61,633 nt of DNA from an uncultured Pelagibacteraceae bacterium. GTDB taxonomy: Bacteria > Pseudomonadota > Alphaproteobacteria > Pelagibacterales > Pelagibacteraceae. Below the pieces are notes generated by a model, which saw only the letters and a list, made by a program, of their open reading frames with translations, ran no database searches and was not told the origin of the DNA. The number at the start of each line of letters is the position of its first letter. Position 1 is the stretch's first letter. This document shows, one piece after another, positions 16,347 to 19,641 of the stretch. The DNA lies in the NCBI GenBank assembly GCA_902629935.1, contig CACOSU010000006.1:1-61633 (forward strand), written 5' to 3'. The position numbers were made by a program, and so were the translations under genes.

Positions 16347-18041
16347 TTAGTTATTATCATTAACATACACAGATACTCCTCTTGTATTAATATCTACATC
16401 AAATTTCTTGTGTAATGGTGGAAATGCTCTTTGAGAACAATCTAACCTGTCACAGGTTCTACAGGATACTCCTATTGGAATCTCGGTTTTTTTGTCAGAA
16501 ATATCAAGGTTTTCTGTATAAACAAACTCTTTAGCATACTTAGCTTCACATCCTAGTCCAATAGACAAAATACTTTTTGATTGACCATATCTACCGACAC
16601 CTTTTTCAACAGTTCTAGCTATGCAAACATATTTTTCTCCATTAGTCATTTTACTTACAGCGGCCTGTATAACCCCTGGTCTTGTAAAAGCAGAATACAC
16701 ATTCCATCTAGGACATGCTCCTCCATAACGTGGTATCTCAATACCTGATAATGAAAATCTTTTAGATATATTGCCTGCAATATCTGTTCTTAACATATGA
16801 AATGGTATACCTGGTAGTTTTGGATCTTGTAAACATGTAACTCTATGAGCCACTTGTTCAAATGATGTGGCAAATGTATTTTGTAAAAGTTCAAGATCAT
16901 ATTTTAATTTTTTACATTCATAATGAAAAAGTTTGTATGGCATTAAAATTGCTGCACCACAATAATTTAAAAGTGCTATTTGAGTTAATCTTTTAGACTC
17001 ATCAGATGGAAAATTAAAATTTGACAAATAATCTGTGATTATATTAATTGCACCCTCTTGTGCTATTTGAGCAGCTGCATGTAACTTTTTTGTTTCTAAA
17101 GAATTATAGTCACTTAACAAAAGTTCTTTCTTTTTTTTATTGAATATTTTTGAAAAAGGTTTCTCTTCCTCAGGAATTACATCTTTAACAGTAATAGAAT
17201 ATTCTTTTTTTAAATAATCACACAGAGCAATATATCTGGTTCTATTATTTTTTTGTACTTTATCAAAAATATTATTTGCAAAATCTTCTAATTTTGGAAA
17301 ATAGTTTTTATTTTCTTGTAAGAAATCTGAAATAACTTCACCTGGAAAAGAGGCTTTTCTACTATCAATAATTTTACCTGAAATATTCTCTACTTTATTT
17401 ACAATTTCATGATCTTTTTGTTTAAAATTATCACCTAATTTTATTAACGCTCTTGCAATTTTTGGATTAGTGCTAACTAAATCTTTAACTTCGGGTCCCA
17501 ATATATCTAAGTCTTCAAACAATTGATCGTCCAACAATTCAGATATATCATTTTCCAAATTGATATCACTTTTACTAGTTAAATCTGACAGTTCTACTCT
17601 TAATTCTTTACTAATTTTAATTAATAGATCTCCATCTATTTTTCTTTTTCCACCTTCTATTAAATTTAAGTATGTTGGAGATATACCTAATTGCTCTGAA
17701 AATTTATTTGCCTGCAAGCCCAATTGTCTTCTGAAAGCTTTAATTTTTGGTCCAATTTTTAAATTTAACTTTTTTAAATTTTTACTTTTAGAAAAGTTTG
17801 AGATTGCATTTTTTGAATTATTTAGATTAAAGATTTTATCTGTTTTTAAATCTGATAGTTCAATTCTTAATTCTTCGCAAATCTTTAATAACAAATCTGC
17901 ATCTATATTTCTTTTTCCACTTTCAATTAAATTTAAAAAGCTTGGAGAAATTGACAATTGTTCAGCTAATTTATTTGCTTGAAGACCAAGCTGCTTCCTA
18001 AATTTTCTGATATTTTGACCAATTTGACTGTTTATTTGCAT
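16347..18041 (-). CDS. ScfR/RamB-like transcription regulator with tandem HTH domains
   Basis: A 564-residue XRE-type regulator of the short-chain fatty acyl-CoA regulator group. Two N-terminal helix-turn-helix domains (about 7-65 and 96-154) are roughly 70% identical; most relatives have one and are about 470 residues. The long middle is the ScfR ligand domain, and the C-terminus has the CRTCDRLDCSQRAFPP cysteine motif (DUF2083). RamB of Corynebacterium controls acetate and glyoxylate genes. Here the gene faces isocitrate lyase across six TTGTAAATT-like sites, the nearest 12 bases from its own ATG, so control of aceA and of itself is likely. Confidence 0.85.
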   Translation of the reverse strand: MQINSQIGQNIRKFRKQLGLQANKLAEQLSISPSFLNLIESGKRNIDADLLLKICEELRIELSDLKTDKIFNLNNSKNAISNFSKSKNLKKLNLKIGPKIKAFRRQLGLQANKFSEQLGISPTYLNLIEGGKRKIDGDLLIKISKELRVELSDLTSKSDINLENDISELLDDQLFEDLDILGPEVKDLVSTNPKIARALIKLGDNFKQKDHEIVNKVENISGKIIDSRKASFPGEVISDFLQENKNYFPKLEDFANNIFDKVQKNNRTRYIALCDYLKKEYSITVKDVIPEEEKPFSKIFNKKKKELLLSDYNSLETKKLHAAAQIAQEGAINIITDYLSNFNFPSDESKRLTQIALLNYCGAAILMPYKLFHYECKKLKYDLELLQNTFATSFEQVAHRVTCLQDPKLPGIPFHMLRTDIAGNISKRFSLSGIEIPRYGGACPRWNVYSAFTRPGVIQAAVSKMTNGEKYVCIARTVEKGVGRYGQSKSILSIGLGCEAKYAKEFVYTENLDISDKKTEIPIGVSCRTCDRLDCSQRAFPPLHKKFDVDINTRGVSVYVNDNN

Positions 18042-18053
18042 AAATCTAATAAT

Positions 18054-18145
18054 TTGTAAATTTTGTAAATTTTAATTTACAAAAAATTAACTAAATTTAC
18101 AAGTAAATTGGAGGTTTTTAGTAGAAATTGTAAATCTTGTAAATT
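18054..18145. promoter_or_regulatory. Operator array of TTGTAAATT half-sites
   Basis: Six copies of one 9-mer within 92 bp. TTGTAAATT lies at 18054-18062 and 18063-18071 (abutting direct repeats), its reverse complement AATTTACAA at 18074-18082 and 18094-18102, and the direct pair returns at 18128-18136 (one mismatch, final C) and 18137-18145. The two 18-bp pairs differ by one base and lie 74 bp apart, close to seven helical turns. The array sits between the regulator start and the short ORF ahead of aceA. Confidence 0.75.
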
Positions 18146-18156
18146 ATAAGTTTAAT

Positions 18157-18318
18157 ATGAATAAAAAATTAAAAAACACTGAAAATGAAGCTCAAATCAT
18201 CAAAAAAGAGGATTTAGATCATCACAATAGCAGAGGTATTTATATGAGAGATGATCATTGTGATTGGGGTTCAAGTGGAATGAATGATCTTATCGAAAAA
18301 GCAAGCGATAATAATTAA
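18157..18318 (+). CDS. Small hypothetical protein, 53 residues, upstream of aceA
   Basis: An ORF from ATG at 18157 to TAA at 18318, just after the operator array and 48 bases before isocitrate lyase. It encodes a soluble acidic/polar peptide with an HHNSRGIYMRDDHCDWG core that carries His, Asp and one Cys. No ribosome site is obvious. It may be a conserved small protein co-transcribed with aceA, or a leader ORF. I do not recognise it. Confidence 0.5.
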   Translation: MNKKLKNTENEAQIIKKEDLDHHNSRGIYMRDDHCDWGSSGMNDLIEKASDNN

Positions 18319-18366: not shown

Positions 18367-19641
18367 ATGAGCGCAGAAAATATCTCATACAATTTAAAAA
18401 GATTTGCAGGAATAAAAAGAGACTATACCTCAGAAGAAGTTGAGAGATTAAGAGGTTCTATAAAAATTGAATATTCATTATGTAAACATCAGTCACAAAA
18501 ACTTTGGAAATTGTTAAATTCTGAACCTTATGTAAATACACTTGGGTCATTGTCAGGTAATCAAGCGGTTCAACATGCTAAAGCTGGTTTGAAAGCAATT
18601 TACTTAAGTGGTTGGCAAGTTGCTGCAGATGCCAATACAGCTGGAGAAATGTATCCAGATCAATCCCTATATCCTTATGATAGTGCTCCAAAATTAGTTG
18701 AGTCTATGAATAACTCATTAATAAGAGCTGATCAAATTCAGCATATGGAAATGCAAGATGGTGATATGAAAGCTGAAGATAAAACAGATTACATGCTCCC
18801 TATCATTGCTGATGGTGAGGCAGGTTTCGGTGGTCCATTAAATGTATTTGAGTTAACAAAAAAATTTATAAAAGCAGGTGCAGCTGGTGTACACTTTGAA
18901 GATCAACTAGCTAGTGAAAAAAAATGTGGGCACATGGGTGGTAAGGTTTTAGTTCCAACAGGAACGATGGTAAAAAATCTTAAAGCTGCAAGATTAGCTG
19001 CTGACATTGCTGAAGTGCCTTTAATTATTTTAGCAAGAACTGATGCAAATGCTGCAAAATTAATCACTAATGATTTTGATCAAAATGATAAACCGTTTTT
19101 AACTGGCGAACGATCTCCTGAGGGTTTTCATTATGTAAAAGATGGAATTGAACAAGCAATTTCAAGAGGTTTGGCTTACGCTCCATATGCTGATTTAATT
19201 TGGTGCGAAACTGCAACTCCAAATTTAGCTGAAGCTAAAAAATTTGCTGATTCGATACATGAAAAATTTCCTGGAAAACTTTTAGCTTATAATTGTTCTC
19301 CATCATTTAATTGGAAAAAACACTTAAGTGATGATGAAATAGCTTCTTTCCAACAAGAGATTGCTAAAATGGGTTATAAATTTCAATTTATCACTCTTGC
19401 TGGATTTCATACTCAAAATATTGCAATTTTTGAACTTGCAGAAAAATATAGAAAAGAAGGTATGGCTGCGTACTCAAGAATTCAACAACAAGAATTTGCT
19501 AGAGAAAAAGATGGTTATACTAGCGTTAAACACCAAAGAGAAGTTGGTACATCTTATTTTGATGCAGTATCAAACACAATTAGCAGTGGTCAAAGCTCAA
19601 CTACTGCAATGGCAGGTTCAACAGAGTCAGAACAGTTTTAA
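18367..19641 (+). CDS. aceA: Isocitrate lyase
   Basis: A 424-residue enzyme that splits isocitrate to glyoxylate and succinate in the glyoxylate shunt. The catalytic motif KKCGHMGG has Cys187. The substrate loops [30 protein letters not shown] and [16 protein letters not shown] are all present and the length is normal for the short bacterial form. No malate synthase or isocitrate dehydrogenase kinase lies nearby. The operator array and the divergent ScfR-like gene point to control by acyl-CoA or acetate state. Confidence 0.97.

Follow-up and report, generated by a model that had tools for sequence, protein, structure and literature searches.

A predicted RamB/PrpR-type operator between a divergent ScfR-family regulator and aceA in SAR11 bacteria

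The window analysed here, a stretch of 61,633 nucleotides from an uncultured Pelagibacteraceae bacterium, carries a 92-bp array of six short boxes in the gap between a ScfR-family regulator gene and aceA, the gene of isocitrate lyase. With a probability of roughly 0.86, this array forms a divergent operator-promoter for a switch dedicated to the glyoxylate shunt, predicted to be under the adjacent RamB/PrpR-like regulator of the ScfR family. Operators of the RamB/PrpR type are already known; what is new is a SAR11 member located at aceA and a regulator variant that contains two HTH domains. SAR11 cells have few regulators, and the array provides a concrete, testable operator for control of the glyoxylate shunt in these abundant ocean bacteria. 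A literature search, which left subscription journals mostly outside and is weak evidence of absence, found no published account of glyoxylate-shunt control in SAR11.

The array and its flanking genes

The features of the locus are listed below. The genus frequencies refer to 89 loci whose sequence includes both the start of the regulator gene and the DNA upstream of it. These loci were read from 151 sampled genomes of the genus, including the window's own, of which 99 contained a regulator match; ten of the 99 were left out as partial, contig-edge or weak matches.

16347..18041, minus strand: regulator of the ScfR family (RamB/PrpR-like), 564 aa, identified by its ORF, Pfam and the match to PrpR
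16365..16832, minus strand: ScfRs C-terminal domain with a CX2CX4C Fe-S motif (Pfam, residues 404-559)
17577..17756, minus strand: HTH2, residues 96-155 (predicted helices in residues 97-154; block pLDDT of 66-82 across residues 101-150 and less at either edge)
17844..18023, minus strand: HTH1, residues 7-66, the extra domain (predicted helices in residues 2-65; pLDDT 65-88 in 10-residue blocks)
18053..18060, plus strand: box A1, TTTGTAAA (exact in 77 of 89 genus loci)
18062..18069, plus strand: box A2, TTTGTAAA, 9 bp after A1 (exact in 87 of 89 genus loci)
18076..18083, minus strand: box B, which reads TTTACAAA on the plus strand (A1 to B is 23 bp in 89 of 89 genus loci)
18096..18103, minus strand: box C, which reads TTTACAAG on the plus strand (B to C is 20 bp in 89 of 89 genus loci)
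18127..18134, plus strand: box D1, ATTGTAAA in the window (the commonest form in the genus is TTTGTAAA)
18136..18143, plus strand: box D2, CTTGTAAA in the window, on a 9-bp period with D1
18145..18150, plus strand: putative -10-like TATAAG directly after D2 (not among the sites reported by the sigma-70 scan)
18157..18318, plus strand: conserved ORF of 53 codons that separates the array from aceA (in 89 of 89 genus loci)
18367..19641, plus strand: aceA, encoding an isocitrate lyase of 424 aa (725.3 bits with NF011645, whose cutoff is 562)

Within the 92 bp, the 9-mer TTGTAAATT occurs in five exact copies on either strand (18054, 18063, 18074 on the minus strand, 18094 on the minus strand, and 18137) and in a sixth copy with one mismatch, TTGTAAATC at 18128. 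These are the copies and positions of the original prediction, and its spacings are also confirmed: the two pairs are 74 bp apart and the two inverted copies are 20 bp apart. Its placement of the array between the regulator and aceA is correct with respect to the gap, but the 53-codon ORF intervenes, and the array abuts this ORF rather than aceA. The clustering of the copies lies far beyond chance. Across the entire window, the 9-mer shows no enrichment (105 matches with at most one mismatch against 112.9 expected). The maximum was two exact copies in 300 order-3 Markov simulations of the window (reached in 17 of 300), compared with five in the 92 bp, and again two in 20,000 letter shuffles of the 115-bp gap (reached in 3 of 20,000). 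The A+T content of this gap is 85%.

A better description of the repeat is the 8-bp near-palindrome TTTGTAAA, whose copies are separated by 1 bp and follow a 9-bp period. The box has a symmetric TTT..AAA pattern, and only the two centre bases break the palindrome. Because each box is near-palindromic, 'direct' and 'inverted' pairs are hardly distinct, and a pair can also be read as an imperfect inverted repeat. Two sites in the array, the A pair and the D pair, contain two TTTGYAAA-like boxes on a 9-bp period, a geometry taken from the PrpR footprint described below. A degenerate further box is located at 18118-18125, 9 bp before D1 (TTAGTAGA in the window and TTTGTAGA in many genus loci), and may make the D site a triple tandem.

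The 53-codon ORF has a pN/pS of 0.39 and a nearly invariant core around YMRDDHCDWGSSGMN. Searches of Pfam, NCBIfam and PADLOC gave no match for it, and related small ORFs are found at the same place in several, not all, other genera of the family; the ORF possibly encodes a small protein that is made together with isocitrate lyase. Its first in-frame ATG lies 13 nt after D2 in 83 of the 89 loci (18143-18159 in the window), and a TATAA is located within 7 nt of D2 in 73 of the 89. With this TATAA as the -10 element, the transcription start would fall on the ATG or beside it, and the small ORF transcript may be leaderless. In some other genera, a longer leader with a purine-rich stretch precedes the small-ORF ATG. 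A consensus promoter scan returned three promoter-like sites against 3.4 in shuffled sequences, which is no excess. At the other end of the array, A1 starts 11 bp upstream of the regulator start codon in the window. Across the genus this distance ranges from -3 to 13 bp for script-chosen starts; among the 15 two-HTH loci, 4 have an A1 that overlaps the start so chosen.

Conservation of the array and its restriction to one locus

The regulator, the small ORF and aceA occur in the same order at all 89 genus loci, with the regulator adjacent and divergent. The regulator match was present in 20 of the 23 genus genomes with a completeness of at least 90% and a contamination of no more than 5%. The original prediction had staked itself on a search of related aceA leaders for the repeat, and this search found it conserved: all six boxes were present at fixed spacing, with no more than five mismatches in total, in 88 of 88 scored genus loci. 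In all 88 of these loci, A1 and D1 lay 73 or 74 bp apart, under a scoring that allowed 72-75 bp only; a free geometry pass took D0-D1 for D1-D2 in 19 of 89 loci.

The paired boxes extend beyond the genus. In other genera of the family, a 9-bp-period pair with at most two mismatches was found in 18 of 20 loci (shuffle mean 0.2, maximum 1), and all 20 regulators examined have one HTH match each. The pair beside the regulator is TTTACAAA instead of TTTGTAAA in several of these genera. Where the distance from A1 to D2 is readable there, it is approximately 81, 89-90 or 99 bp, compared with 82-83 bp in the window's genus. Seven-turn phasing was considered as a kept feature of the array and was rejected, since this spacing varies outside the genus. 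Among other alphaproteobacterial loci, 10 of 27 contain a 9-bp tandem with at most two mismatches (shuffle mean 0.07, maximum 1) and the remaining 17 contain none at this threshold; of the periods from 8 to 13 tested in these loci, 9 was the best. One HTH match was found in 26 of these 27 loci and none in the other (L171), and aceA was not found in the examined DNA of seven. In genomes richer in G+C, too, the motif stands before related regulators (mean upstream G+C 51%).

The exact tandem pair TTTGTAAA-n-TTTGTAAA marks the regulator gap almost exclusively. A search of 121 genus genomes returned 86 sites in 71 of the genomes, and comparison with the regulator positions placed 84 of the 86 at the regulator gap; the remaining two lie inside ORFs of 276 and 473 aa. 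The reversed-pattern control gave one site in the genus genomes. The window's own genome contains three sites with at most two mismatches to the 19-mer, namely the A pair, the D pair and one site on contig C1 inside a 403-aa ORF, and matches to the 19-mer there do not outnumber those to the reversed control (32 and 44, respectively). A wider regulon for the exact tandem pair was rejected, as the off-locus exact pairs lie inside ORFs.

The regulator and aceA appear to come and go together in this sample, and the glyoxylate shunt appears patchy in the genus. Twelve genus genomes that are at least 90% complete have no regulator match, and ten of them appear to be without aceA; the best aceA similarity in these ten is weak and partial (E 1.4e-9, 36-41% identity over approximately 90 residues). 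Of the two remaining genomes, which have aceA, one has the array, with a contig edge inside the regulator, and the examined DNA of the other ends approximately 100 bases before aceA. The ten genomes that appear to be without both aceA and the regulator are G009, G022, G107, G236, G273, G301, G330, G336, G356 and G377, each at least 90% complete.

The regulator and its doubled HTH

The regulator comprises HTH1, a linker, HTH2, an IrrE/M78-like domain and the ScfRs C-terminal domain, in this order. The C-terminal domain matches PF09856 with an E value of 4e-59 (199.4 bits against a cutoff of 24), and the IrrE/M78-like domain matches PF06114 (36.5 bits against a cutoff of 22). The Pfam HTH_3 model matches two stretches of the protein; one HTH copy is usual for the ScfR family. 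The closest solved structures are those of M. tuberculosis PrpR (6cz6, E 4.8e-61 over residues 154-554, and also 6cyj, 6cyy and 6d2s), and these crystal structures cover the C-terminal part of the regulator by sequence. The four Fe-S cysteines of PrpR (C363, C447, C450 and C455) are all kept, as C443, C527, C530 and C535. Of the seven PrpR residues that contact CoA in the available part of PMC6765138, five are conserved in one pairwise alignment (K217, H319, R338, K347 and K410), and the other two, both aromatic, are changed in that alignment (F155 to G and F240 to L). The score against the NCBIfam RamB equivalog NF038139 is 383.7 bits and does not reach the curated cutoff of 700. The protein is therefore called RamB-like and is filed only in the ScfR family, not as an archetypal RamB. 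The nearest named records are contigs of uncultured Pelagibacteraceae and Candidatus Pelagibacter, with a top match of 98% identity over 564 residues, within a named relative set that comprises the best 80 of 473 and leans towards the window's kin. The predicted structure of the whole regulator has a mean pLDDT of 54 and a pTM of 0.36, with fair confidence in the HTH domains and poor confidence in the rest.

The two tandem, approximately 70% identical HTH domains of the original prediction are borne out. The identity between HTH1 and HTH2 within a protein is 56.7-76.7%, with a mean of 68.9%, across 45 double proteins. The single HTH of the relatives corresponds more closely to HTH2 (mean identity 78%) than to HTH1 (73%; 45 double and 62 single proteins). 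The recognition segment of the one-HTH proteins (ISPSYLNLIESGKR consensus) is largely retained in both copies. Both are also under purifying selection, with a pN/pS of 0.20 for HTH1 and 0.17 for HTH2 in 14 of the 15 two-HTH proteins (L022 is missing). Purifying selection, together with the modelling of both copies as helical HTHs, indicates that the extra domain is not decaying.

The array itself is independent of this doubled HTH, because the same array stands before one-HTH regulators: the regulator has one HTH in 74 of the 89 genus loci and two in 15, and the array is found in both classes. In a tree of the regulator C-terminal part, the label for HTH number needs seven changes with an outgroup, of which at least two are forced by supported branches, and six changes without it. 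In a short aceA DNA tree, the label needs 12 changes (at least seven forced) and clusters no better than shuffled labels. The extra HTH is scattered over the genus (N-termini L009-L023 and L172-L251), a pattern that looks like recombination moving either the domain or the allele. A single origin of the duplication was considered; the trees do not show it, which may be due to recombination, to repeated loss or to the weakness of the trees.

HTH number co-varies with details of the operator in raw counts. A perfect box B occurs in 40 of 45 rows with two HTHs and in 5 of 62 with one, the 62 including L211, which is without the array on its contig; in the 89-locus set, the corresponding counts are 13 of 14 and 18 of 74. 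The 74-bp spacing occurs in 29 of 45 two-HTH and 2 of 62 one-HTH rows (9 of 14 and 7 of 74 in the other set). The D pair shows the opposite tendency, with both boxes perfect in 4 of 45 two-HTH rows compared with 38 of 62 one-HTH rows (2 of 14 and 21 of 74 in the other set). Seven independent pairs are supported in the aceA tree, from which one two-HTH locus of the 89 was left out for its short sequence; from the 107-row set, L211 was dropped for want of a readable array on its contig, and 106 rows were kept. In these pairs, box B tracks HTH number in 4.8 and is never opposite (median p 0.0625), the 74-bp spacing tracks it in 3.4 and is never or hardly ever opposite (median p 0.25), and a perfect D pair is opposite to it in 2.1 (median p 0.5). 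The regulator tree, with three supported pairs, gives 2.7 for box B, 2.4 for the 74-bp spacing and 1.1, in the opposite direction, for a perfect D pair (median p 0.25, 0.5 and 1). For the association of HTH number with box B, the spacing or the D pair, no pairwise test in either tree fell below 0.05.

The operator abuts the HTH1-coding end of the regulator gene, and one recombined segment would carry both; linkage of the adjacent DNA thus suffices for the association between HTH number and box B and is the simpler reading, preferred over co-evolution. An alternative, which we regard as rather unlikely, is that the extra HTH has a function and alters the tuning of the operator. In that case, a two-HTH chain would contact two boxes or reach box B, its alleles would co-evolve with a perfect box B and the 74-bp spacing, and gain and loss of the domain by recombination would provide a swappable gain control on the SAR11 glyoxylate shunt. 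The novelty that remains at this locus is the HTH duplication, which is selected, patchy and co-segregates with a perfect third box, and linkage could explain the co-segregation. The second HTH is a lineage-variable extra, not the reason for the array, which does without it. One-HTH and two-HTH regulators on an almost unchanged operator form a natural contrast for the role of a duplicated DNA-binding domain.

Predicted mechanism and alternative readings

Several studied relatives bind comparable sites. M. tuberculosis PrpR belongs to the same family, has the Fe-S cysteines that are kept here, is divergent from its targets, and, according to the available text of PMC3420887, protects 25 bp that hold two 8-bp boxes with one base between them (TTTGCAAA-n-TTTGCgAA). 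Unlike the present regulator, PrpR has one HTH, and its box centre is GC, compared with GT/AC in SAR11. The accessible part of the PrpR literature describes one pair at prpDR and no array resembling B, C and D, and its main target there is the methylcitrate cycle (prpDC / icl1). Paracoccus denitrificans RamB (class 2) is likewise divergent from glyoxylate-cycle genes: in the available part of PMC10370305, it is located in reverse orientation upstream of the glyoxylate operon and binds in vitro, and both of the two boxes in the gap are needed for activation. The tested box 1 (oligo 46) of that study, GTGACAAA-C-CTTACAGA, is a degenerate 9-bp tandem by the present reading, not by that of its authors (PMC10370305). 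The Paracoccus locus differs in that its boxes are 18 bp apart and more degenerate and in that aceB (ms) is the first gene; no extra small ORF is described in the accessible text. Corynebacterium glutamicum RamB, as described in the available excerpts, is a regulator of acetate metabolism with a TTTGCAAA core site (AA/GAACTTTGCAAA). Its sites occur at many genes, whereas the exact tandem pair here marks one locus. The icl1 gene is repressed by M. tuberculosis RamB and activated by PrpR (PMC6765138, in the part available). Since M. tuberculosis RamB represses while PrpR and Paracoccus RamB activate, the sign of control is not readable from family membership.

These relatives and the anatomy of the locus suggest how the array may act. 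Each TTTGTAAA box would be a near-palindromic contact site bound directly by the regulator, and the pairs on a 9-bp period would form the composite site of the family. The A pair, 11 bp from the regulator start codon, most likely auto-represses the regulator. The D pair, 13 nt before the small ORF and just upstream of the -10-like TATAA, would control the unit of the small ORF and aceA, and boxes B and C, between the pairs, would lie over the presumed regulator promoter. By analogy with its relatives, the regulator's signal is probably CoA or a CoA thioester, to which it would respond with a change of oligomeric state. Autoregulation and control of aceA, as predictions, are well supported by this anatomy and by the studied relatives. 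The original prediction had also proposed auto-control of the glyoxylate shunt. The part that stands is an array placed to control both the regulator and the aceA unit and conserved in aceA leaders; the two-HTH rationale fails.

That rationale held that two HTHs on one chain account for the abutting pairs: two HTHs per chain would be needed for each direct-repeat pair, and the two pairs would be bridged by a seven-turn DNA loop. It is consistent with the state of the two HTHs, both of which have a recognition segment, a predicted helical fold and purifying selection (0.20 and 0.17), and with the A1-D1 distance of 73 or 74 bp in all 88 scored genus loci. A precedent for two DNA-binding domains on one chain is the repressor of the mycobacteriophage TipsytheTRex, which binds an asymmetric site as a monomer according to the available part of PMC9283540; here, one-HTH relatives carry the same array. 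The two-HTH requirement is largely refuted by the sequence comparisons. The same array precedes one-HTH regulators in 74 of 89 genus loci, all 20 loci from other genera have one HTH, 9-bp tandems precede one-HTH relatives in other genera and families, and the one-HTH PrpR protects the same geometry (PMC3420887, in the part available). Moreover, in other genera the distance to the D pair departs from that here by part of a helical turn, and the near-palindromic boxes weaken the argument from direct repeats. The requirement for two HTHs with a seven-turn loop is thus very improbable.

A loop could also form without two HTHs per chain if a regulator tetramer held the A and D pairs and repressed both promoters, and CoA esters split the tetramer into dimers and opened the loop. 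We consider this possible but fairly unlikely. PrpR81-486 is a tetramer (PMC6765138), and Paracoccus RamB passes from a tetramer to a dimer with CoA esters (PMC10370305), both according to the available parts of these sources. The two pairs also stand at near-constant spacing in the genus, with 73-74 bp corresponding to a near-integer number of turns. Against this, boxes B and C between the pairs equally suit a continuous side-by-side coverage, and the phase of the spacing is not kept across genera. A 74-bp DNA loop is, in addition, short and stiff. Compared with these readings of a RamB/PrpR-like operator, the possibility that the array belongs to another regulator or is mere AT-rich promoter sequence is hardly credible. 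The A+T content of 85% in the gap and the fact that binding by the regulator is a prediction would favour it. However, the clustering exceeds chance, the exact pair is exclusive to the locus, the array is lost with the regulator, and the same motif precedes related regulators in GC-richer genomes.
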